This document shows positions 16,304-57,128 of a DNA stretch of 59,229 bases, piece after piece. The stretch comes from an uncultured Opitutales bacterium (GTDB lineage: Bacteria > Verrucomicrobiota > Verrucomicrobiia > Opitutales > Seribacteraceae), in the NCBI GenBank assembly GCA_905478775.1, contig CAJQKB010000133.1:1-59229 (forward strand), in the 5' to 3' direction. A program made the position numbers and the translations under genes. Position 1 is the first letter of the stretch, and each line of letters starts with the position of its first letter. The notes under the pieces are model-generated. The model saw only the letters and a program-made list of their open reading frames with translations, made no database searches and had not been told where the DNA came from.

Positions 16304-19300
16304 ATGATATCCACCTGTTTATCCGTATGCAGGCAAGGTTGGTTTGGTGTCCCATTGTTTCTTTTGGGTATTGCCAGTCTTGCTTTCAGTCAACTTGTTC
16401 AAGAAGCTGAAACTGAATCACTCCCACCTGATCAACAAGCTCAATACATAGAATCCAAACTGGGTCTCTTAGATGAGCGCCTTAAGGAGGTGAAGAAAGA
16501 ACAGGGAAGTAATCAATTTAGTGCAAATAGAAGTTCTGCAAATGGAGATTTAAAACAGCTTGTCTCTGCCTATGGTGCTAATGATTCTAAGTCCATTTCG
16601 ATTCGCAATCAATTAGATGTCGCAGATCGGAATTGGAAGGTCCGTTCTGAAGAGATTGCTCAAGGTATTTCATCGGTAGATAGTCGTTTGAACGAAGCAA
16701 CTCTTATCTTTGATGATTTGAAGGAAAACTTCGCCGGGCGACTTGAAGAAGCAGCTCCGGCCTTGCGAGTACTTCAAGAAAATTTGATGCGAACTGAAAC
16801 GGAAGTGGATGCGCTCACCAATTTATCCCGAAATGCGGTATCTGAGGCCATTCAATCTTATTCCAATATTCAGGCTGAGAGTAACTTACTCGCTATTCGA
16901 GCAGTTCCTACAGCACCTAAAACTAGCAACGGTGGAAGTGCTTACTCACCCAAAGCCCAACAGGTGGCAAATGTAATTAAAGCAAAAGAAGCAGTTGCCT
17001 TAGGTTCCTCAGGTCGTTTTTCACCTTCGATTAATACAGATGCAGGGTTCGTACAGGTGAGGAGTGAACAAAATAATGGATATGAGTCATCTGAGATCAT
17101 TGATCGTTTAAAAACTGAACTTGCGACTTCAAAATCTGTTCAGAGTGAACTTTCTGCCGATACTGCTGATATGCAAGGAGACTTAAGGAAAGCCTATCGC
17201 GAAATTGTCTCATTGCAGAATAATTTAAAAGAGACTCAAATGTTAGCGAGAAGTTTAGAGGAGTCTAAAAATTCTCTTTGGGCCACGGAAAATGGCCAAG
17301 TACCTACTGCCCGGAGTGTGAGCGGTAAAATTAATAAACTGGAACAAGATTTGCAACTTGCCCGTGAAGATCTTCGGTCTTCCAGGCAAACTTTGCTAGT
17401 GGAGCAAGAGCGTTCCAATGCGATGATTCGCTCGGTAACAAATGAGCTCGAAAGAACGCGATCCGACCTTGATGCTGCCAGAACAGCCACTATGTCATCA
17501 GGGAGTGATTCGATACGGCTTGCCTCTCTTGAGCGTGAGCTCAATGAGGCGAGAAGAGCACTACAGATGGCACAAATGGCACCAATGGACTCCACCCAAG
17601 AATCTTACTTAACCCTGCAAAACGAATTAAGGAAATCATTGGGGGAAATTACCCGAATGCAAATTGAGCTCAATGAAAAAGACGAGCTTGAAGCTCAACT
17701 AGTAAAGCTGAAAAGTTCTATGGAAGGATTTGGTGATTCACCGAACCGAAATAACAGTTCGGAATATGTAAACAAACTTTTGATCGATCTTAATGCAGCA
17801 AAACGTGAAGTAGAAAAGGCAAAATCTCTGAATAGGGCAGGTCGGCAGGATCTTGTTGAACGCGTTGCATCGTTAGAAGATGAATTGAAAATTTCTAATC
17901 TAAAATTAAAGAAGACACAGACTGAGTTTGAAGCGTCACAGGAAAAGATTGCTCGTCGGGAATTCGAATACGCAACGACAATTCAACGACTGGAAGAAGA
18001 TGCGCAAGTCGCCCAGGATTCATTGCGAGATGCATCACTCGGTAAATTACCTGCCATTCCATTTGTGGATGAAATGGAAAGAAATCTCGCAGACTCAGAA
18101 GCTCGGATTAAAACTTTATCCAACCGTTTCGAATCTGAACAGAGTAAAGCCACAGAATTAATTGATGGATTACAGGTTGAACTCGATTCTGCTGTGGTTC
18201 GGCAAAAACGTGCGTTAGATCAATTAGCAAGGAGAGAGCTCGATTTAGAGGGCAAGGATTTGGAGTTAAAACAAGCCCAGGCTGATGCAAAAAAACTCAA
18301 GGAAGAACTGGAGGTGGTAAAAGTAATTGCAGGTCAACTCGAAGATTTGAATACTGTGCTAGAGGAGACTAAAAGAACACAAAATTCACAATCTGGTAGT
18401 TTAGATCAGGTAGTGGAATCACTACGCGAAGAATTAAATCAAGCGAAAGTCGAGCTTGTCTTTACCAATGAAGACAAGGAAAGATTTATGCAGGATTCAG
18501 CAAAAATAATTAGTTCCTTGGAATTACAGCTCGAAAATACCCGTAATCAATTACTTGCTGAGCAAGAAAACCAAGCGGATCAGTCCAATGAATCAAAAGA
18601 ACTTGTTCTTGATTTAAAAAGTGAACTCGATGTTGCTCGAACCGAAATTTCTCGGATGAAATCGGCTGGATTAGGAGAATCTGTGGAAACTAAGCAAGCA
18701 GTTTCCCAACTCCAAGAGGCACTTGGTACGATCAGGATTTTGCAGGAGAGTTTAGAAGAAGCTGAACAGGTAAACTTAGAAGTTGATAATTTACGCACCG
18801 AGTTGGCTAATTCGATGGAATCTCAATTATTGTCACTGCAAAGAGCAGATGATGAAAAAAGAATTCTTCGACAACAGGCAGAAGATCTAGAGTCGGAGAT
18901 TGTTATTTTGCGCAACCAAGGATTAGGTGCAGGGGTTCAATTTCAGAAATCGAATGCTTCCTTAATGGAAGAATTGGAAGTTTCGAACGCTCAAATTGTT
19001 GAATTAGAAAAACGATCCGCAATGGTGGAGGATAATGAGGTCTTATCATTGATTGATTTGGAGGAGGAATTAGCCAGTGAGAAACTTCGCAATCAAGAAT
19101 TACAACAAGAATTGTCCCAAAAATCAATCGGACGGAGTAAGACTATCGAAATTTTAGAAAACGAGTTAGCGAGTGCCTTACAAAAACTCGATAACTTGGA
19201 AAACAACGATGTCATTCGAAATAGAAAAATCGCCAGCCTTGAACAAGAAATTATAGAAACTAAATCAATACTGGATACAGAATCTGAAAAAGGTTCAACC

Positions 19301-22123
19301 GATGATGAACAGGTTGCCATTGTGACACAACTAGAGGAACAACTAGTCAATGCCCAAAATAGATTAGACCAGATTGAAAAGAGCCCACAACCGCTTGCTT
19401 CAGGATCGCAAGATTCCCAAGTATTTGAAAAACTTGAAATGGAACTTTCCCGAGCCGAGCAAACAATTGATGCGTTGCAAGTTTCTTTAGATTCACAAGA
19501 TGAAAAGCGAATTAATTTGCAAGAGCAGTTGGATGACGCAGTGCAGAAGTTAAATGAGATTGCTCAAAACGGAGATCAATCCCCTAGGAGTCTTCCACAG
19601 GGTTCTGAAAAAGATGCGGAAGATTTTATTCGTTTGGAAAATGAACTTCTAGCCGCTCAGAATACGATCAATGATTTACTTGAAAAAACAAATTCAGAAG
19701 AAGTTGAAAGAGGAAAGATCGAAGAACAACTAGCTTTGGCAATGGAAAGCATCGAGAAAATTGAGAGCGACTCTATACCAGGTAAAAGTACAGATTCTGC
19801 ACCGGATGACACCGCCCTTGTAAAGGACCTGAATGCTTTATTGGAATCCAAAGATAAAAGACTCAAGGAATTAGAAGAAGAGTTAAGTAATGCCATTGTG
19901 GAGATGACTGACAAAGAAGCAGAACTTGAGATCGCATCATCACTTCGAGAGGAGATGGAACTTTTGGCGAGTAAGTTAGAAAGTGCTGAAAAAAAGTTAA
20001 ATGAAATGAATCTAGAAAATACAAACCTTGATTCAACTCCAGTGATCCCAACCCTGAGCGACTCGGAGAAAAATGATTTATTGAATGAAATCAGTCAGTT
20101 AAAAGCAGATCTGGATAAAGCCAAGTCAGAGACTTCCTCAGCACCACAGGATGATCAATTGTTAGCACTCCAGAGCCAGTTGCAGGATGCAGTTTCTGAA
20201 ACTATAGAAATGCAGACCGAATTAGAGGAAACACAGGCCAGGTTGACTCAAATGGAATCCAGTGTTGGTAATTCTTCTTCCCCCGAAATTAATCAAGTGA
20301 TTGAAAATGCCAAGCAGGCCGAAAACCAAGCTCTCCAAAGGATAGGCAATCTAACTGCTGCGCTACGTAATTCCGAGCAATTGAGGAAGGAGATGGAGTC
20401 GTTACTTTTGGAGTCAGACCAATCAAATGAAGTGGCACCAGTTCCTAACTTTGCCAGCGATCCACGATTTATCGAGTTACAGAAAGAACTCCTTCTTCTT
20501 CAACAAGATTTACTTGCTGCTCGAGGTATTGAAGAACCTCGTTTTCAAGAGTTGCAGTCCGAATTAGAGGCAAGTCAAAATGACAGTTTAAGATTAAATG
20601 ATGAATTTAAATCTGTTTTTTCGGAATTTGGAAGAATTAAGGAACAGGTGGCGATTTTGGAAGAAGAAAATCGACGCTTGCAGGGCTCAATTTCATCTTC
20701 TGGTTCCAATCAGAATCGTGAATTAAAAGCAAACTACCAGACTCGTGTGAATGATTTGTCAAAAGAGAATGCCAATCTTAGAATGCAAATCGGAGAAAGA
20801 GATAACCGAGTCACTGGATTAAGAGAGGATTTAGCGAGAGCACAAATGACTGTTCCTGGAATAAAGCCAGATAATGCCGCCCTGAGAGCACAGATTGTCC
20901 GTTTGGAAGGAGCAGAGCAAAGTGCTCGAGATTCGGAGGCAAGGGCGAAAATGGAGGCTCAACGATCGATGGCAGATATTGCATCCCTCAATCAAAAAAT
21001 AAATATATTGGAAGAAAATTTAAGACAGTCCCAATCCCAATCCCGTGGAACGCCTTCAACATTTACCACTTATAACCCACCGCCTGTTGTAGTTACTAAT
21101 CTATCCAATGCAGCAGATGGTGCAGAAATTCAAAGATTGCGGGAACAAAATCAACGATTACAAACACAACTTCTTTCCAACAATACAATTCCACAAAGGG
21201 ATCAGTTGGACAGAAAGGTTCGGGACTTAAATCAGAAAAACCTTACCGCCCAAATTCAACTCGATCAAGAGAGGGCACGGGTTGAAGATTTGAGACGACA
21301 ATTATCAGATGCACGAGATATAAAGCAGGAAGTGGTGGAGAGAGGACAATCAGCCAACATGAAAGTTAATCTATTAAATGGCGAGTTATCAGATGCTCAA
21401 AATCGAATTTCTTCTTTAGAAAACGCATTAGTTGCTGCCAGGGAAGCAATTCGTGTCTTGAAAAAGGGAGGCAGTGGTGGAAGTACAATGCAAGTTTCTG
21501 TACCCCGAACTTCTAGAAGTTCGAGTAATTATGTAAGTTCTCCGATTCGCTCAACTCCTGCTCCCCGGACCTTAACAAGTACTTACACTCCAAGACCGTT
21601 GCCTTCCTCGACATACCGTCCTTCTCCTTCTTCGAGCAACATGTTACCTAATTCTTCACTTACATCTCCCGGTATCCAAAAGATTCCCGACGGTGATTCA
21701 AGTATTCAACTCCGCGCTCAAGTCCAGTTTCTTAACAATAAAAACCGACCTGCTGGATTCACTGAGTTCTTCTTGGTAAAAAATGACCTTGAAAGTATTT
21801 TAAACTCTTCGAGAGTACGAATCCCGCCTGGCCAGGGGATTGATACTGGAGCAGAGCTTTGGGCAAGATCAGTGCAAAGGGGATACCGTTTTCCAGGTAT
21901 TGCTTCCGCGATTAGAAATGCATTAGCAACTAACAGTCTTGCCCGGATCAAGACCAATTCAATGGGAGAGGCTAACCTCGAAAATATTGAGGCAGGGAAT
22001 TACTTTATTGTTGGTTCTTCACCACTTGGACAGGTTGGAGTTGTTTGGTCCAAACCAGTGGAATTAAAGCCCGGAACAAATGGTATTGTTTTAGATTTGA
22101 GAGACGCGGCTTGGGCAGAATAA
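16304..22123 (+). CDS. Giant exported coiled-coil protein with proline/serine-rich linker and C-terminal globular domain
   Basis: I do not recognise this family. From the ATG at 16304 the product has 1939 residues; a TTG 21 bases upstream is less likely. A signal peptide is visible in the first ~33 residues, with the hydrophobic core VPLFLLGIASLAFS. Almost everything from about residue 40 to 1720 is Glu-, Gln-, Leu- and Ser-rich heptad sequence, interrupted near 1579-1605 by a short proline-rich break (PPPVVV). Residues 1729-1789 are rich in Ser, Pro, Thr and Arg, like a flexible or wall-spanning linker. The last ~140 residues form a compact domain whose end resembles beta-sandwich carboxypeptidase-regulatory modules. 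It probably acts in the periplasm or at the surface as a long fibre or tether. There are no ATPase motifs, so it is not an SMC protein. Confidence 0.85.
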   Translation: MISTCLSVCRQGWFGVPLFLLGIASLAFSQLVQEAETESLPPDQQAQYIESKLGLLDERLKEVKKEQGSNQFSANRSSANGDLKQLVSAYGANDSKSISIRNQLDVADRNWKVRSEEIAQGISSVDSRLNEATLIFDDLKENFAGRLEEAAPALRVLQENLMRTETEVDALTNLSRNAVSEAIQSYSNIQAESNLLAIRAVPTAPKTSNGGSAYSPKAQQVANVIKAKEAVALGSSGRFSPSINTDAGFVQVRSEQNNGYESSEIIDRLKTELATSKSVQSELSADTADMQGDLRKAYREIVSLQNNLKETQMLARSLEESKNSLWATENGQVPTARSVSGKINKLEQDLQLAREDLRSSRQTLLVEQERSNAMIRSVTNELERTRSDLDAARTATMSSGSDSIRLASLERELNEARRALQMAQMAPMDSTQESYLTLQNELRKSLGEITRMQIELNEKDELEAQLVKLKSSMEGFGDSPNRNNSSEYVNKLLIDLNAAKREVEKAKSLNRAGRQDLVERVASLEDELKISNLKLKKTQTEFEASQEKIARREFEYATTIQRLEEDAQVAQDSLRDASLGKLPAIPFVDEMERNLADSEARIKTLSNRFESEQSKATELIDGLQVELDSAVVRQKRALDQLARRELDLEGKDLELKQAQADAKKLKEELEVVKVIAGQLEDLNTVLEETKRTQNSQSGSLDQVVESLREELNQAKVELVFTNEDKERFMQDSAKIISSLELQLENTRNQLLAEQENQADQSNESKELVLDLKSELDVARTEISRMKSAGLGESVETKQAVSQLQEALGTIRILQESLEEAEQVNLEVDNLRTELANSMESQLLSLQRADDEKRILRQQAEDLESEIVILRNQGLGAGVQFQKSNASLMEELEVSNAQIVELEKRSAMVEDNEVLSLIDLEEELASEKLRNQELQQELSQKSIGRSKTIEILENELASALQKLDNLENNDVIRNRKIASLEQEIIETKSILDTESEKGSTDDEQVAIVTQLEEQLVNAQNRLDQIEKSPQPLASGSQDSQVFEKLEMELSRAEQTIDALQVSLDSQDEKRINLQEQLDDAVQKLNEIAQNGDQSPRSLPQGSEKDAEDFIRLENELLAAQNTINDLLEKTNSEEVERGKIEEQLALAMESIEKIESDSIPGKSTDSAPDDTALVKDLNALLESKDKRLKELEEELSNAIVEMTDKEAELEIASSLREEMELLASKLESAEKKLNEMNLENTNLDSTPVIPTLSDSEKNDLLNEISQLKADLDKAKSETSSAPQDDQLLALQSQLQDAVSETIEMQTELEETQARLTQMESSVGNSSSPEINQVIENAKQAENQALQRIGNLTAALRNSEQLRKEMESLLLESDQSNEVAPVPNFASDPRFIELQKELLLLQQDLLAARGIEEPRFQELQSELEASQNDSLRLNDEFKSVFSEFGRIKEQVAILEEENRRLQGSISSSGSNQNRELKANYQTRVNDLSKENANLRMQIGERDNRVTGLREDLARAQMTVPGIKPDNAALRAQIVRLEGAEQSARDSEARAKMEAQRSMADIASLNQKINILEENLRQSQSQSRGTPSTFTTYNPPPVVVTNLSNAADGAEIQRLREQNQRLQTQLLSNNTIPQRDQLDRKVRDLNQKNLTAQIQLDQERARVEDLRRQLSDARDIKQEVVERGQSANMKVNLLNGELSDAQNRISSLENALVAAREAIRVLKKGGSGGSTMQVSVPRTSRSSSNYVSSPIRSTPAPRTLTSTYTPRPLPSSTYRPSPSSSNMLPNSSLTSPGIQKIPDGDSSIQLRAQVQFLNNKNRPAGFTEFFLVKNDLESILNSSRVRIPPGQGIDTGAELWARSVQRGYRFPGIASAIRNALATNSLARIKTNSMGEANLENIEAGNYFIVGSSPLGQVGVVWSKPVELKPGTNGIVLDLRDAAWAE

Positions 22124-44263: not shown

Positions 44264-44325
44264 AGAATTCAATTGACCGGTCGATTATTAAACAGGTGCA
44301 AATAACTTGTTTTTTTAACACAGCC

Positions 44326-45843
44326 ATGTCTTTCCTTTTCAAGGTAGGGATTTCCCTTCTTTTATTCCCTCTTGCTATACTTGCAGAGCCACTTTTTGTG
44401 CCAGAACCTCTACTTGAAAAGGCTCTGGCAAAAGCCTTGCGAGTGGACCGGGATTCGCTGACATCCGAATTAGTCGCCGAAAAGTTAGAATATTTTGAAC
44501 TCAGTAATGCCCAAATTAGGGATTTAACTGGACTGCAGGCAGCTAAGAATTTGAAGGTTTTAGTTCTTCGCGATAATTTAATCCAAGATCTTTCCCCGAT
44601 AACGGATTTACCTCATTTGCGAAAGCTTGATCTTTCTGGAAATAAAATAGCAGACTTATCTCCATTTGTGGGCTTATCAATCCGCAAAATGCAGGATGAA
44701 ATTAGCCAAATTAAACTCAAGTTATCCGATTATAAAACTCCCAAGAGCGAGGTTGCTTCGTTAATTCTGACTTTATCAGAGTTGATGGAACGTTTAAAAA
44801 GGGGACCCTGGCAACTTCAGGAGTTATCACTTGCTAATAATCGATTGCTGGGTCTCTCGGGAATCTCACACCTTAGTCAATTACGTCACTTAGATGTGTC
44901 AGGGAATTCATTAATTGATTTGGAGGGAGTAAGCACACTTGCGAATCTGACTAGTTTCTATGCGCAAGGAAATCAATTGGGAAGAATTGAGGGATATGTG
45001 GATGAAAATAAGAACAAAATTTATGATATTGGTGAACCCATTTCGGATGAAAGTGGAAATGGAAAAAGGGATACTGATCCATTAACTGAATTACAATCAA
45101 TCCCAACATTAGTAAATTTGTATCTTTATGATAATCTTTTGAAATCAATTAATTCTCTGAATGATTTACCACGACTACAGATCCTTCTTTTATCAGGAAA
45201 CCAATTAGAAAGTGTTGGGAATCTGAGAAATTTCGAAAATATTAGTAGGCTTTCTCTCTCTGACAATCGCATCAACAGTCTCCACGGTCTCGAGGTTTTA
45301 CCAAGAATTGAACATTTGTACCTCGCGGAAAACCGAATCTGTGATTTGAGAGCAATTCAGGGACTCACTTCATTGAAAGAACTTCGTTTACAAAGAAACC
45401 AAATTGTTACTCTTCAAGCACTCGCAGAATTCGATAAATTACAAGTTTTATCCCTATCCAATAACTTTATACATTCTGCAAAACCTTTGCTCGCACTTAA
45501 CAATTTAAAACGCCTTTCACTTTCTGGAAATTGTCTGGACCTAGAAAGTCAGGTTGTTCAGGATCGACTCAACCAAATTCGTTCGTCTGGCGTATTCTTA
45601 GTCGCTGGTAATCAAAAGAAAAGAGTTATTGAAGCCGAACAATTGGTTTTTTCAATGATAGGCCATCCCCGTTCGAATAGTACTCTTGGGCACTACCTCC
45701 AAGAAAATGGTTATTTAAGATTGATTGATTTTGCGGAAGATTCTTCTTTAGATGAATCGGAGAAGGCAAAAGCGTATCAAACTTGGCAGAAATCTTTGAT
45801 GAATGGTTCTTTTCGAAACGACTTACCTTTTCTCAAAAAATAA
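44326..45843 (+). CDS. Secreted leucine-rich-repeat protein with EF-hand-like insert
   Basis: A signal peptide (FKVGISLLLFPLAILAEP) is followed by internalin-like leucine-rich repeats of about 22 residues, for example LKVLVLRDNLIQDLSPITDL and LHGLEVLPRIEHLYLAENRI. There are roughly ten repeats in two blocks. A helical charged stretch (about residues 120-160) interrupts the first block. Residues about 224-250 insert two DxNxNxxxDxGE-like loops (DENKNKIYDIGE and DESGNGKRDTD) that resemble calcium-binding EF-hand or dockerin loops. A C-terminal non-repeat region of about 80 residues follows. It is probably an envelope or surface interaction protein. The ATG at 44326 was preferred to a GTG 30 bases upstream. 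Confidence 0.85.
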   Translation: MSFLFKVGISLLLFPLAILAEPLFVPEPLLEKALAKALRVDRDSLTSELVAEKLEYFELSNAQIRDLTGLQAAKNLKVLVLRDNLIQDLSPITDLPHLRKLDLSGNKIADLSPFVGLSIRKMQDEISQIKLKLSDYKTPKSEVASLILTLSELMERLKRGPWQLQELSLANNRLLGLSGISHLSQLRHLDVSGNSLIDLEGVSTLANLTSFYAQGNQLGRIEGYVDENKNKIYDIGEPISDESGNGKRDTDPLTELQSIPTLVNLYLYDNLLKSINSLNDLPRLQILLLSGNQLESVGNLRNFENISRLSLSDNRINSLHGLEVLPRIEHLYLAENRICDLRAIQGLTSLKELRLQRNQIVTLQALAEFDKLQVLSLSNNFIHSAKPLLALNNLKRLSLSGNCLDLESQVVQDRLNQIRSSGVFLVAGNQKKRVIEAEQLVFSMIGHPRSNSTLGHYLQENGYLRLIDFAEDSSLDESEKAKAYQTWQKSLMNGSFRNDLPFLKK

Positions 45844-46119: not shown

Positions 46120-47457
46120 ATGCCTGCAAAACAAAGAACTATCCGAAATGAGCGTTCAATAAAGGGAAAATCTCTTCACACTGGAGAAGAAGTTAATCTT
46201 ACCATTAAACCGGCGGAAGAAAACCAAGGTTTTGTCTTTCGACGAGTTGATCTATTTGGAAAGCCTGAAATTATTCCATTGTCCTGTAATGTTACTGAAC
46301 TGGTTAGAAGTACGACAATTTCAAATGGAAATGCAAAGGTCCATACAATAGAGCATGTTTTGAGTGCCCTTGCAGGTTGTGGAGTAGATAATGCAATCAT
46401 TGAACTAGATGCAAGTGAACCCCCTATATTGGACGGTTCATGCCGTCCCTTTGTCAATCTTGTCTTAGAAGCAGAACCAGTAGAGCAAAATGCGGAAAGG
46501 GAGTATTATACCTTACCTGAACCGCTTTCTGTGACCTCAGGGAATCGTTCAATGATTGCTCTTCCTTATGACGGTTTTCGTATTACATGTACCTCTGCGG
46601 ATGATCGTGGCAGTCACGTACAGCATCTATCGATTGATTTGGATCCTGAGACCTTTGTTGCTCAGATTGCACCTGCCCGAACATTTACCGTCTACGAAGA
46701 TATAGAAGAATTACTTAAATTGGGAAAAATTCGTGGGGGAAGTCTTGACAGTGCAATTGTAATCAAGGGAGATAAGATTCTTTCGAAGGAACCGCTTCGA
46801 TTTGAGGATGAATTTGTCCGTCATAAAATTTTAGATATTGTTGGTGATCTCGCTTTATTAGGAAAACCTATAAAAGCTCATATAATTGCGGTACGACCGG
46901 GCCATTCTCTGAATTCAGATTTAACAAAAAAGATCGGGGAAAGGATGGAGCGAGAAGGGAAAGTTGTTTCTGAAAAGAAAAATAATAAATCCGTGGTTCT
47001 TCCAGAAGAGACCGAATTAGATATTCGACGTATCCTCGATGTTTTGCCCCATCGTTTTCCTTTTGTAATGATTGACCGGGTAATTTCAATTGAGGGTAAT
47101 GAAGTTTTGGTTGGAATCAAAAATGTGAGTATCAATGAGCCCTTTTTTACCGGACATTTCCCTGGGCATCCTGTGATGCCTGGAGTACTTCAATTAGAAG
47201 CAATGGCACAAGCTGCCGGCATTTTACTATTACGTCGAAGTTCTTCGGAAGGTAAAGTGGCGTTTTTCATGAGTGCAGATAAGGTTAAATTTAGAAAACC
47301 GGTTGTCCCGGGAGATCAACTTGTCATAACCGCTACTTTAGAAAAGGTAAGGGGAAACAAATTGGCAACTGCAAGCGTTGAATGTAAAGTGAATGAGAAG
47401 GCAGTTTCATCCGCAAAGCTTATGTTTTCAATTGTAGATGCGGGGGAAGGAAGTTAA
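46120..47457 (+). CDS. lpxC-fabZ: Bifunctional UDP-3-O-acyl-GlcNAc deacetylase / 3-hydroxyacyl-ACP dehydratase (LpxC-FabZ fusion)
   Basis: Two enzymes in one chain of 445 residues. The N-terminal ~295 residues are LpxC, the committed zinc deacetylase of lipid A synthesis, with zinc ligands in [11 protein letters not shown] (about residues 73-83) and [12 protein letters not shown] (about 231-242). From about 300 the sequence is FabZ, with the hot-dog-fold active site [20 protein letters not shown] (about 343-362). A lysine/asparagine-rich linker joins them. The fusion couples use of hydroxyacyl chains for lipid A and for fatty acids. It is known from Bacteroidetes and, as I recall, from several Verrucomicrobia. 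lpxA starts immediately after the stop. Confidence 0.96.
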
Positions 47458-53085: not shown

Positions 53086-54822
53086 ATGAATACCTCGATT
53101 CGCTCCCTTCTAATTTCTATTCACTGCGTACTTTTTTGTCTGCATTCAAAAGCGGAATCCGGACTGTTGCACATGCTTCCCGAAAATACCGTTTTTCTTT
53201 TGGAGGTGGATGACTGGAATGGATTGGGAAAATCGATTGAATCTGGTCCACTCGGAGAGTTTTCAGAATCCAAGGCATGGAAGAAAATGTGGGAATGGAC
53301 CGAGAATAAAATGCAAAGTGATTCCGCAAATAGTTCGGAAAAAGTCGGGTTTATGTTTGAGCGAATGGAGGAGTGGGTTGATTCAATGTCAGGCGGTGCA
53401 ATTCTGGCAGTGGGTAACCTCGAGAAATTATTATCCAAGGAAATCCCGGAGATGACACTGCTCGTTGAAACTGATTTCACTCAAAAAAAGTGGGAAGGCA
53501 CCTTGAAATGGATGAAAAAAGAAGTGACATCTTCGGACGGAAGTTTTTCTTGGGAAAGAGAAACAATCGCGGGTGAAGAGGTTTATTGGATTGGGCCCGA
53601 TAATGGGAAAGAAAAAAAGCAAAGCTTTGCAGTAGTTCTGATTGATCAAACTCTTGGAGTTTTCCTTGGTGGAGAAGATCATGTCAGGGATTCTCTCCTC
53701 AGAGTCACCGGGAAATCGCCGTCTGCATCTATGGAGAAAAATGATAATTACTTGGATTTATTTGATGAGATCGACCGCGGGGCAGCCCGAATGTTTATTG
53801 ATTTTGAACAACTCCAGGGATTAATTGAAGAAGCGGAATCTGTTCCGGACATGCAAATTCCGGAAAACCCCTTTGGAGTGACCACATCCAAGTTGATTTC
53901 TGCCATGGGGCTCGATTCAATGGAATGCCTTGGTATGCAAATAGAGCCGACTGACAAAAATTTAGTTCTGTCGACTGCTGCTTTTTTTAGTAAATACGAA
54001 GGAATTTTTTCTTTCGTTCAAAACGAGGAAAAAAAGGAAGCGGTTCAGTACGAGTTTTTTCCCACGCAGGCATTTACTGCCACCTCGGTTAGATACGACT
54101 TCGCACGGATTTGGCCAACAATAGAAGAAATAATTACCGGACTCAGTCCTCAACTCTTGCTCCTCGTCAATTCACAGATACAGGCATTTGAGGAAAAAGC
54201 GGGAGTGGCTTTTCGGCGTGATGTTCTGGGAACACTCGGAGACGAAGCGTTTAGCTTTTCTCTTCTGCCCGCCAAGATTGAATCGATTGAGGACTTTGGA
54301 AAGAGTAGTGATTTTTTTGGAATTTCTCTTACTGATCCAAAATTGTTTGACCGATCTTTGCGGACGATGATTGATTCAGTCGCTCCGGGTAATGATCTTT
54401 TTTCGGAGCGTGTGCATAAGGGAGTCACCATAAGGAAACTTCGTGGATTGGAAGAGAGCGGAAGTTCGCTGAGCTATGCAGTTACTGAAAAATGGTTATT
54501 GCTGGCGTTTGGACAGAACAATCAACTCAATCAAGTTATTAACCGATTGCAAGGTAAGGGAAATTCTTTATGGAAGAAAAAAGAAATCAAACAAGCAATA
54601 GTGGATTTGCCTGATGATTTGAATCAGTTAGACTTCGTCGACCTTGAAAAATTGGTAAGTTTTTTATCTTCGGTGGCTACAACTACCCTTGAATCTGAAG
54701 AAGAAATCGAACTCAAATCAAGTGATTTCCCCAGTTTTCCTTACTTCCTGCTCGCTTGGTCGAAGAATATTCAGCGGGGAATAGTAGGGAAAGGAAAATT
54801 ATATCCCAAAACTGGCCAATGA
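53086..54822 (+). CDS. Exported protein of unknown function, DUF3352-like
   Basis: A 578-residue protein with a signal peptide (IRSLLISIHCVLFCLHSKAE). The layout resembles DUF3352-type secreted proteins of Planctomycetes and Verrucomicrobia: an opening LLHMLPENTVFLLEVDDWNG segment, paired alpha/beta modules with helices and edge strands (VVLIDQTLGVFLGGEDHV), and a second copy in the C-terminal half (YAVTEKWLLLAFGQNNQLNQ). The match is by memory and pattern only. No catalytic motif is seen. It lies seven bases after the protease gene, and its stop overlaps the next start as ATGA. An upstream ATG inside the protease gene was rejected. Confidence 0.75.
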   Translation: MNTSIRSLLISIHCVLFCLHSKAESGLLHMLPENTVFLLEVDDWNGLGKSIESGPLGEFSESKAWKKMWEWTENKMQSDSANSSEKVGFMFERMEEWVDSMSGGAILAVGNLEKLLSKEIPEMTLLVETDFTQKKWEGTLKWMKKEVTSSDGSFSWERETIAGEEVYWIGPDNGKEKKQSFAVVLIDQTLGVFLGGEDHVRDSLLRVTGKSPSASMEKNDNYLDLFDEIDRGAARMFIDFEQLQGLIEEAESVPDMQIPENPFGVTTSKLISAMGLDSMECLGMQIEPTDKNLVLSTAAFFSKYEGIFSFVQNEEKKEAVQYEFFPTQAFTATSVRYDFARIWPTIEEIITGLSPQLLLLVNSQIQAFEEKAGVAFRRDVLGTLGDEAFSFSLLPAKIESIEDFGKSSDFFGISLTDPKLFDRSLRTMIDSVAPGNDLFSERVHKGVTIRKLRGLEESGSSLSYAVTEKWLLLAFGQNNQLNQVINRLQGKGNSLWKKKEIKQAIVDLPDDLNQLDFVDLEKLVSFLSSVATTTLESEEEIELKSSDFPSFPYFLLAWSKNIQRGIVGKGKLYPKTGQ

Positions 54823-57128
54823 ATTTCTTATCCGTTTCAATGAGGGGATGTACCTGTGCATTTCTTTTCTTTTTTGCATTCACTAATGTCGGGGCGGTTT
54901 CTTTTCGCCTCTCTTCTCCGGAGGTAATTAAGGCCAGCTGGAATGCACGGACTTTTCTTTGTGAGGATTTGAATGCGGACGGTCTTAACGACCTCCTCTT
55001 TTTTAATCTAGACCGTTCGCGAATTGAAATTCTCTACCGTACTGCGAACGGAAAAACTCCTCCCCGAGTTAGCCCAGTTCAGGCGGATCGTTGGAATCCC
55101 GACTTGGAGGATGCTCCTTATAAAAAGGAATATATTTTTGTACCTGAAAAAATAACTGTATTGGCAGTAGGTGATCTCAATGGGGATGGTCTACTAGATG
55201 TGATCCAGGGTAGTCCTGAAAACGGTGTGCAAGTTTATTTCCGTACCGAAAATTTAAAGTGGGAAGATCCCTATGAGGTAGAATCTGGAAAGCTCCGTTC
55301 TGGTATGTTTTCGATCAAGATTAAAAACGGAAAAGAGCCAGGTCGTTCTACACTTTATCTTTTCACTGAACCGGGACTTGAAGTCATTAATTTTAAAAAA
55401 GGCGAACCAAAATACCCTTCAAAACTTTTTCGGGAAGGAAGTAAAAGTGCACGCGGACTGCATTTGGCCGACTTCGACCACGATGGAGTGGATGACTGGC
55501 TTTACTTAGACCCCACAAAGGAAAGGTCCATTCGTGTGCGCTACGGAGTAAAGGACGGCTATGGCCCCGAGCATTCTTTTGATCTTTCTCTTCTTTCCTT
55601 TAATCCAGTCGACCATTTCCAAGGGAATAAAGAATCTAAATTCGTGGGTATCGACCGGACATCCAGTGAAGTCACCGTCTTTTCGATTAGCCCACAAGAG
55701 GGCGAGGCTGACTTCTCTGATTATGGTGCGGTGAGTCATGACCTTTTTCCCGGGGATGAAAAAAAAGCCGCCTGGGTAATGGAAGATTTTAATTCTGATG
55801 GGAATGTCGACCTGATTGCAGCTTCTCCCAAACTCGGTGAATTCCTTTTTTTACCTGGTGGCACAAACGAGCAGTTTGGTTTACCTCAAAAAAATCCTTC
55901 CCTAAAGGGAATAAGCTCACTTTCGGCCTGCCGGTTTTCTTCCACCAAAAATCCAGGGCTTCTTATTTTGAGTCCGGAAGAGAAAATTGTCGGACTCTCA
56001 GAATTCACAGATAACAAAAGATTTTCTTTTCCCGTTCCTCTTTCCGTGGACGGCGATGCAATTCTCTCCCACTGTTCTGACCTAGATGGAAATGATCGTG
56101 ATGAGATTTTGATCGTGGTCGAGAAAAGATCAGATTTTGTTCTACAAATATGGTCAAAGGAAAATGGAAAGGATTATCAAGTCTCGTCGGAGATTGAACT
56201 GGATGAATGGAAACGCGAACCATCCGCTATCTTTCCCTGTTATTTAAACGAAGATGATCACATCGACCTGGTATTATTGTCCGATCGAGAAGCGGGTCAA
56301 CTTCTGCTCAATAACGGGAAGGGTAAGCTTGAATTAGTGGGAATGGATTCAGCCATTCGTAAGAGTGTGCTTTTTGGAAAAAATCGTTCTCATATAGGCA
56401 GTGGGGAGGTCAATGGCGATCAATCTCCTGAATTGCTTATTGCCGGCGAGGGGATGGTACGTGCACTCAAGTGGAGGGACGGAAATCTGCAAGTGATCGA
56501 ACAATTCAACTCAGTTGATCCAAAGGCTGAACTTGCGTGCCCAATTTTACATGATATCGACGGGGACGGGGAAAAGGAATTGGCTTATTATTCTGGTGAA
56601 AATTGGGTAATTTTAAAGAGACTATCAGATGGAGTTTTTGAAAAGTCTGAAGAAATTGAGGAGGAAACACGTTCCCCTTTGGTTGTCTATTCATTCCCAT
56701 CAAAAAATAAAAAAGGTTTTTACTCATTAAGTACAAGTGGGATTGATGTAATTGGGCAATCACTATCGAATCAGGAATGTCACTTGGAGGTTCATTCGCG
56801 TTATCTGACCGATCTTCCTAAAATTATTCATGGCGGAGTAGATTGGGGAGATTTTAATAATGATGGGAACCTCGACTTGTTATGTATGGACGGTCGGAAG
56901 AATGTGCTCGAGTTTTTGTCTTTTTCCGAGAAAGAAAAAGATTGGGAGAGCGTGCTTCACTTTCAGGTTTTCGAAAAAGACCTTCACTATCGCGGTAAAA
57001 AGGGGGGTGTGAACGAGCCCCGTGATGGATTGATTGCGGACTTGGATGGAGACGGGCGAGATGATCTGGTTCTCTTAGTTCACGATCGTTTTCTGTGTTA
57101 TTATCAAAGCAAGGAAGCTGGAAATTGA
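54819..57128 (+). CDS. Exported FG-GAP/VCBS-repeat beta-propeller protein
   Basis: A 769-residue protein with a signal peptide (CTCAFLFFFAFTNVGA). At least eight FG-GAP/VCBS calcium-loop motifs are visible, near residues 49 (DLNADGLND), 118 (DLNGDGLLD), 219 (DFDHDGVDD), 322 (DFNSDGNVD), 421 (DLDGNDRDE), 577 (DIDGDGEKE), 677 (DFNNDGNLD) and 741 (DLDGDGRDD). These predict one or two integrin-like beta-propellers stabilised by Ca2+. It is probably an envelope or extracellular binding protein. It is translationally coupled at both ends (ATGA upstream, TTGA downstream). Confidence 0.87.
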   Translation: MNFLSVSMRGCTCAFLFFFAFTNVGAVSFRLSSPEVIKASWNARTFLCEDLNADGLNDLLFFNLDRSRIEILYRTANGKTPPRVSPVQADRWNPDLEDAPYKKEYIFVPEKITVLAVGDLNGDGLLDVIQGSPENGVQVYFRTENLKWEDPYEVESGKLRSGMFSIKIKNGKEPGRSTLYLFTEPGLEVINFKKGEPKYPSKLFREGSKSARGLHLADFDHDGVDDWLYLDPTKERSIRVRYGVKDGYGPEHSFDLSLLSFNPVDHFQGNKESKFVGIDRTSSEVTVFSISPQEGEADFSDYGAVSHDLFPGDEKKAAWVMEDFNSDGNVDLIAASPKLGEFLFLPGGTNEQFGLPQKNPSLKGISSLSACRFSSTKNPGLLILSPEEKIVGLSEFTDNKRFSFPVPLSVDGDAILSHCSDLDGNDRDEILIVVEKRSDFVLQIWSKENGKDYQVSSEIELDEWKREPSAIFPCYLNEDDHIDLVLLSDREAGQLLLNNGKGKLELVGMDSAIRKSVLFGKNRSHIGSGEVNGDQSPELLIAGEGMVRALKWRDGNLQVIEQFNSVDPKAELACPILHDIDGDGEKELAYYSGENWVILKRLSDGVFEKSEEIEEETRSPLVVYSFPSKNKKGFYSLSTSGIDVIGQSLSNQECHLEVHSRYLTDLPKIIHGGVDWGDFNNDGNLDLLCMDGRKNVLEFLSFSEKEKDWESVLHFQVFEKDLHYRGKKGGVNEPRDGLIADLDGDGRDDLVLLVHDRFLCYYQSKEAGN

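Follow-up and report, generated by a model that had tools for sequence, protein, structure and literature searches.

Exported coiled-coil rods with terminal domains have been described in diderm bacteria. The SlpA/OmpM proteins of Deinococcus and Omp-alpha of Thermotoga measure ~28 and 45 to 50 nm (PMC9388160, PMC5082667), and wherever the function of an exported bacterial rod is known, the rod is such a short spacer (28 to 50 nm), fixed at both ends. Much longer coils are known elsewhere. That of giantin, of 3056 amino acids and ~0.5 µm, was the longest listed in a 2016 review (PMC5082667). Giant exported surface proteins occur in Apilactobacillus (Giant1-5; PMC12863079). Here, we analyzed a window of 59,229 nucleotides, one entire contig (CAJQKB010000133.1) of the 2.78-Mb draft genome (95% complete) of an uncultured Opitutales bacterium. 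It carries, exactly at positions 16304 to 22123 of the forward strand, an intact reading frame for a protein of 1939 amino acids, hereafter called the giant, whose parts all lie on that strand. The presence of an LpxC-FabZ gene in the window (46120-47454) implies that the host cell is diderm. We suggest that the giant is exported and dimerizes into a rod or filament of the envelope, which probably runs along the periplasm and is docked through the C-terminal domain, and we put the probability of this reading at about 0.45.

The evidence for export is found at the N terminus, where the first 29 residues (16304-16390) have the features of a Sec-type signal peptide ending in AFS|Q. The motif A-[FY]-S|Q occurs at 29|30 (26|27 in one protein), directly behind the hydrophobic core, in all 27 full-length orthologues, which range from 1786 to 2076 amino acids. 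An uncleaved anchor is disfavored, because it would have no reason to preserve the -3/-1 residues. A second membrane segment was not found in any of the 27 orthologues (no 19-residue window of mean hydropathy >1.4 past residue 35), and the mature chain is cysteine-free in 26 of them. We infer from the conserved cleavage site that the giant is exported by Sec and that residues 1 to 29 are removed. The original prediction, made from the letters of the stretch, had also proposed a signal peptide and had named a cytosolic location as the finding that would overturn it; all the evidence points to export. The signal peptide is itself far better conserved than is usual for signal peptides (QGWxGxPxFxxGxxSLAFSQ).

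Could the giant instead be a coiled-coil protein of the cytosol, related to SMC or to the cytoskeleton, whose N terminus is hydrophobic by chance? A weak SMC_prok_B match limited to the coil (28.8 bits versus a cutoff of 567) speaks for it. Yet the SMC head and hinge are missing, the cleavage site is kept in every orthologue, the mature chain is essentially free of cysteine, and the paralogues described below bear a lipobox or signal peptides, such that we give this explanation hardly any credence. SMC proteins share long coiled coils with the giant, which differs in being exported and in lacking the hinge and the ATPase head (Pfam), and we rejected membership in the SMC/Rad50 group. More generally, no family in Pfam, NCBIfam, PHROG, or the sequences of the Protein Data Bank (PDB) covers the giant, and the matches to ATG16, ribosomal S15, and SMC in these whole-protein searches are chance matches of the coil type. 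A phage tape-measure protein was also rejected, as there is no PHROG match and the neighboring genes are housekeeping rather than phage genes. The earlier judgments that the family is unknown and that SMC and tape-measure signatures are absent are thus borne out, and we found no description of such a protein or envelope architecture in the literature.

Behind the signal peptide, an AlphaFold2 model of residues 31 to 430 made with 21 orthologues (mean predicted local distance difference test [pLDDT] of 77, predicted template modeling score [pTM] of 0.40) has a helical head at residues 42 to 200 (16427-16903). Its four helices (42-68, 73-90, 95-143, and 151-200) have block pLDDT values mostly between 85 and 94, and a PDB fold search with the model gave nothing at an E value of ≤0.001. 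The head is followed by a low-order linker, residues 201 to 260 (16904-17083), predicted to be disordered between ~206 and 258 (pLDDT of 38 to 55 over most of it) and holding a partly conserved EAxPL....RFxPSI motif. Two long predicted helices start at residue 261.

The coil proper spans residues 261 to 1717 (1457 amino acids), with several Pro/Gly-rich breaks. Its heptads are confirmed and far above chance. Hydrophobic residues have a local Fourier peak at a period of 3.52 (power of 2.69 versus a shuffled maximum of 1.68), and column conservation, a signal separate from hydrophobicity, peaks at the same period over residues 281 to 960 (7.03 versus 2.30). All segments between residues 31 and 1717 show a conservation period of 3.46 to 3.54, which is absent from the C-terminal domain. 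With 21 orthologues as the training set, a seven-state register model achieved a gain of 0.137 bits per residue, versus 0.003 on shuffled sequence, and placed 41 register shifts in the rod. Of the ~1700 nearly continuous heptad residues of the original prediction, the heptads therefore stand and the continuity does not, given the head, the linker, the shifts, and the breaks. Searching the rod against itself gave no matches indicative of internal duplication.

How many chains make the rod? The register model gives core positions a (L 35%, I 14%, V 9%, N 5%, K 4%) and d (L 35%, A 21%, S 11%, T 6%) in which beta-branched residues and Asn/Lys are favored at a and not at d. In coiled coils, this pattern favors parallel dimers. 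Judging from this two-stranded type of core composition, two chains would pair in parallel. The coil, of 1437 to 1457 residues with a rise of 0.1485 nm each, would then have a maximum length of ~213 to 216 nm, an upper bound for which the earlier estimate of well over 100 nm was right. The chain could instead fold back into antiparallel hairpins or bundles and serve as a compact scaffold organizing partners, for which one can invoke the register shifts, the Pro/Gly breaks, and the head, itself an intramolecular bundle. The parallel-dimer composition of the core and the uninterrupted segments of 89 to 133 residues make such a scaffold very unlikely.

The giant is under strong purifying selection, which is unevenly distributed along the rod. 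Segment A (residues 261 to 960; 17084-19183) is a highly conserved coiled coil. In the alignment of the 27 giants, majority identity per 40 residues is 0.52 to 0.82 over 281 to 960, compared with 0.63 to 0.74 in the C-terminal domain. Segment B (961 to 1280; 19184-20143) is variable in length and sequence, with a majority identity of 0.32 to 0.43 and occupancy down to 0.65. Segment C (1281 to 1717; 20144-21454) is again coiled coil by the register model and highly conserved at 1641 to 1717 (0.71 to 0.72 over 1641 to 1720); residues 1601 to 1720, like 281 to 960, are conserved on par with the C-terminal domain. The ratios of nonsynonymous to synonymous substitution rates (dN/dS), computed from one pair, the giant of the window and an orthologue 92% identical to it, follow the same pattern: 0.04 to 0.055 for 281 to 960, 0.145 for 961 to 1280, 0.22 for the linker behind the rod, and 0.07 for the C-terminal domain. 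Within 281 to 960, conservation is 0.79 to 0.82 at a/d, 0.67 to 0.74 at e/g, and still 0.51 to 0.57 at b/c/f, versus only 0.24 to 0.25 at b/c/f in 961 to 1280.

Pure spacer coils are described as diverging maximally in sequence (PMC5082667). Hence, given the conservation of 281 to 960, the rod probably uses its first half to make contacts, either by packing against itself or by binding a partner, and residues 961 to 1280 are probably its spacer-like stretch. The idea of a simple, passive spacer, raised in the original prediction, does not hold, because conservation in the first ~700 residues of the rod equals that of the terminal domain. This matters for the possibility that the giant stands upright in the periplasm and holds or tethers the outer membrane to the cell wall, as the exported rods of Deinococcus and Thermotoga do (PMC9388160, PMC5082667). 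The giant rod is possibly more than four times as long as those spacers, its conservation is highest in the rod itself, and it lacks an SLH domain as well as any barrel in the outer membrane or membrane helix at the C terminus, all of which renders an upright spacer improbable. For the same reasons of domain content we rejected membership in the SlpA/Omp-alpha group, with which it shares the exported long coil: no SLH model in Pfam or NCBIfam matched the giant at an E value of ≤1, and its N terminus is a helical bundle.

The rod ends in a linker of low conservation, residues 1718 to 1795 (21455-21688), rich in Ser (26%), Pro (15%), Thr (12%), and Arg (8%), followed by a compact domain at residues 1796 to 1939 (21689-22120), both as originally described. 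AlphaFold2 modeled this C-terminal domain with 17 divergent homologues (mean pLDDT of 90.4, pTM of 0.82) as a soluble beta-sandwich of ~140 residues, in which an insert of three short helices holds a conserved ELWAR motif. Foldseek found 14 PDB matches at an E value of ≤0.001, led by PA1324 of Pseudomonas aeruginosa (3qec/1xpn), a putative carbohydrate-binding protein (E value of 1.6e-06), and followed by CnaB/pilin domains. VIA-align gave Z scores of 8.9 for PA1324 (126 aligned residues, 4.8 Å), 8.5 for GBS52 (91 residues, 2.8 Å), 8.0 for carboxypeptidase D (80 residues, 2.0 Å), and ~7 for transthyretin; as values under 8 can reflect just a common arrangement, these matches are read at the level of the fold. 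The model thus places the domain in the transthyretin/CnaB-like (prealbumin-like) sandwich superfamily, at the level of the fold and with no function implied. It shares its topology with the sandwiches of PA1324, RrgB, GBS52, and BcpA and differs from them by the conserved helical insert with ELWAR and by the absence of a sequence match above threshold. Indeed, when two profiles of the C-terminal domain were searched against PDB sequences, no match fell below an E value of 0.02, and the cutoffs of CarboxypepD_reg (PF13620; best E value of 0.045, 1 of 11 members) and SpaA (PF17802; 0.085, 3 of 11 members) were not reached. A strong match to a characterized family with another role, which the original prediction had singled out as decisive, was sought, and what emerged was this fold-level resemblance to proteins of many roles. 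A viral structure library returned mostly tail and baseplate proteins with similar small sandwiches, one at an E value of 4.8e-04, which we took as a common fold.

The compact domain is not confined to the giant, which amends the earlier view: most genomes of the giant's family also encode two shorter proteins that carry it. The first, in the window's genome at L098:7347-8534, is a putative lipoprotein: its lipobox-like N terminus (VASC and similar) leads into a short coil, and a linker connects this coil to the C-terminal domain. Downstream lie genes for a membrane protein of the DUF1538 type and for a P-II-like protein (L098:8627-11909, forward strand), and neighbors resembling these two in sequence also lie beside copies of the domain in two other families (f11 and f18). 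DUF1538 proteins of Halomonas form an Na+(Li+,K+)/H+ antiporter (PMC5484666), so this paralogue may belong to an ion-transport module. On its other side, the reverse strand (L098:4839-7217) encodes, in divergent orientation, a coiled-coil protein of 792 amino acids with no signal peptide or Pfam match. The third paralogue has a signal-like N terminus and adjoins, in the window's genome, an ABC transporter with GldF/GldG-like domains. As the giant and both shorter proteins carry it, the domain is a module placed on exported coils of varied length. In its tree, the giants form one clade (support of 95/96); their relation to the other paralogues is not settled, given the long branches.

The distribution of these proteins is narrow. 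In the giant's own family, 41 of 42 genomes have matches, and the giant is present in most of them, across all four genera. The genome with no match is 51% complete (G012), and one with a single small paralogue is 69% complete (G011). The profile of the N-terminal 330 residues matches 9 of 115 genomes of the order, all in the giant's family apart from one marginal match. The C-terminal profile also matches a second family (f11, genome G051) and a third (f18, three of three genomes, two weakly); beyond these, it matches two other genomes of 286 in the class sample, both weakly, and in the phylum sample the window's own genome alone among 289. The giant is thus confined to one Opitutales family and lineage-specific. 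By name, its relatives are uncultured Opitutales/Opitutia or Verrucomicrobia, known from metagenome-assembled or single-cell genomes.

The f11 genome encodes a still larger, predicted exported protein with this domain (L090:2358-15803, reverse strand). Its 4462 amino acids comprise a hydrophobic N terminus, a TPR head, a coil of ~4050 residues that contains just five prolines, and, at the end, the domain shared with the giant, and it would reach ~600 nm if extended. This frame rests on one assembled genome, the sole f11 genome in the set, and the tree leaves its relation to the giants open.

These observations suggest how the giant could work. Sec would export the chain and the signal peptide would be cut off after residue 29. 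Two chains would then pair into a parallel coiled coil of up to ~213 nm, with the helical head at the N-terminal end and the flexibly linked beta-sandwich at the other. This sandwich would dock the rod onto a partner, probably inside the envelope, because a lipoprotein and a third exported protein carry the same domain. The rod would lie along the wall or the outer membrane, since a periplasm some tens of nanometers wide leaves no room for a 200-nm rod to stand upright, and would bundle or bind along its conserved first 700 residues, acting as a periplasmic filament or a long-range tether. Alternatively, the giant could cross the outer membrane and project from the surface, with the sandwich as an adhesive tip or a membrane-side anchor. 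The resemblance of the fold to CnaB/pilin and putative carbohydrate-binding domains such as PA1324 fits this, as do the existence of giant exported surface proteins elsewhere (PMC12863079) and a rod length that suits the outside better than the inside. We still regard a surface filament as rather unlikely: the structural matches are weak, stay at the level of the fold, and come from proteins of many functions, a short-armed lipoprotein carries the same domain, and neither a type IX secretion system (T9SS) tail nor an autotransporter barrel was recognized in Pfam or NCBIfam. A search for the T9SS component SprA was also negative, although it was run without a positive control. It is the proposed docking domain, shared with the lipoprotein, together with the lack of a recognized outer-membrane export signal, that makes the periplasm likelier than the surface.

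Several points weigh against a docked periplasmic rod. The AlphaFold2 runs used monomers, such that the dimer state comes from composition, and with its register shifts and breaks the rod could double back on itself or fall well short of 213 nm. Neither a secretion machinery nor a signature of peptidoglycan binding could be tied to the giant. Finally, one genome that is 94% complete (G005) has both small paralogues and no detected giant, which is thus either not strictly required or lost in the assembly. A wider proposal, speculative and on balance unlikely, is that these proteins make up an exported filament system specific to this lineage, in which dimeric rods 200 to 600 nm long, resembling intermediate filaments, assemble side by side outside the cytoplasm via the conserved rod segment and are attached to the envelope through the sandwich domain common to the lipoprotein and the third exported protein.

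The giant gene stands alone at a fixed locus next to the nuo operon. Most of the 30 orthologous loci share one gene order: nuoL-M-N and the giant come first, followed by a Sel1-repeat gene in convergent orientation, a member of the Minf_1886 family, a helix-turn-helix gene, and fba. The Sel1 gene is absent in three genomes (L072-L074), and the genes downstream of the giant differ in genus g2 (L075, L076, and L078). In the window, a tRNA-Leu gene on the opposite strand separates nuoN from the giant. Because of this tRNA gene and the missing Sel1 neighbor, we do not claim an operon, and we rejected a functional tie to nuo despite the family-wide adjacency. The neighbors include the housekeeping genes nuo, fba, tal, and mutL. 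The antisense strand across the frame is stop-rich throughout. An in-frame TTG lies 21 bases upstream of the ATG, at which the orthologue alignment starts and ahead of which no clear ribosome-binding motif was seen. Elsewhere, the window encodes a 699-amino-acid protein (7-2106) with a weak sodium/proton-exchanger-like match in its N-terminal part and cyclic-nucleotide-binding-type matches in its C-terminal part (NCBIfam), a leucine-rich-repeat protein of 515 amino acids (44296-45843) between a pyruvate-carboxylase-like gene and LpxC-FabZ, and an FG-GAP repeat protein of 790 amino acids (54756-57128).

Covered by no family, under purifying selection, and kept across its own family of bacteria, the giant is, as first proposed, a good candidate for a structural part of the envelope that has yet to be described. 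It is of a known kind (exported coiled-coil rods) and of no described family. What is new is its confinement to one family at a fixed locus, the sandwich domain it shares, the 4462-amino-acid relative in a second family, and the uneven constraint on the rod. An exported rod several times longer than known spacers, constrained like a folded domain and sharing its putative docking domain with a lipoprotein, would be an undescribed envelope architecture in mostly uncultured marine Verrucomicrobia. The shared domain makes the question testable, as the three proteins should then have a single binding partner in common.

The nearest known system is that of SlpA/OmpM and Omp-alpha, which the giant resembles in its exported long coiled coil, diderm envelope, and terminal domains, which anchor those proteins; the giant differs from them by lacking SLH, barrel, and second membrane segment, by its dimer-type core, and by a length of up to ~213 nm. 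With the Apilactobacillus kunkeei protein Giant5 it has in common a very large size, export, a long predicted helix, and a conserved C terminus, whereas Giant5 belongs to a Gram-positive host, is built of repeats, ends in an SH3b-like domain, and has no consistent coiled-coil support (PMC12863079). Giantin and the golgins are also very long coiled coils with terminal domains, and act as tethers (PMC5082667), but they are eukaryotic proteins on the cytosolic side of the Golgi with no homology to the giant. If the assembly holds, the ~4050-residue coil of the giant's largest relative would exceed that of giantin.
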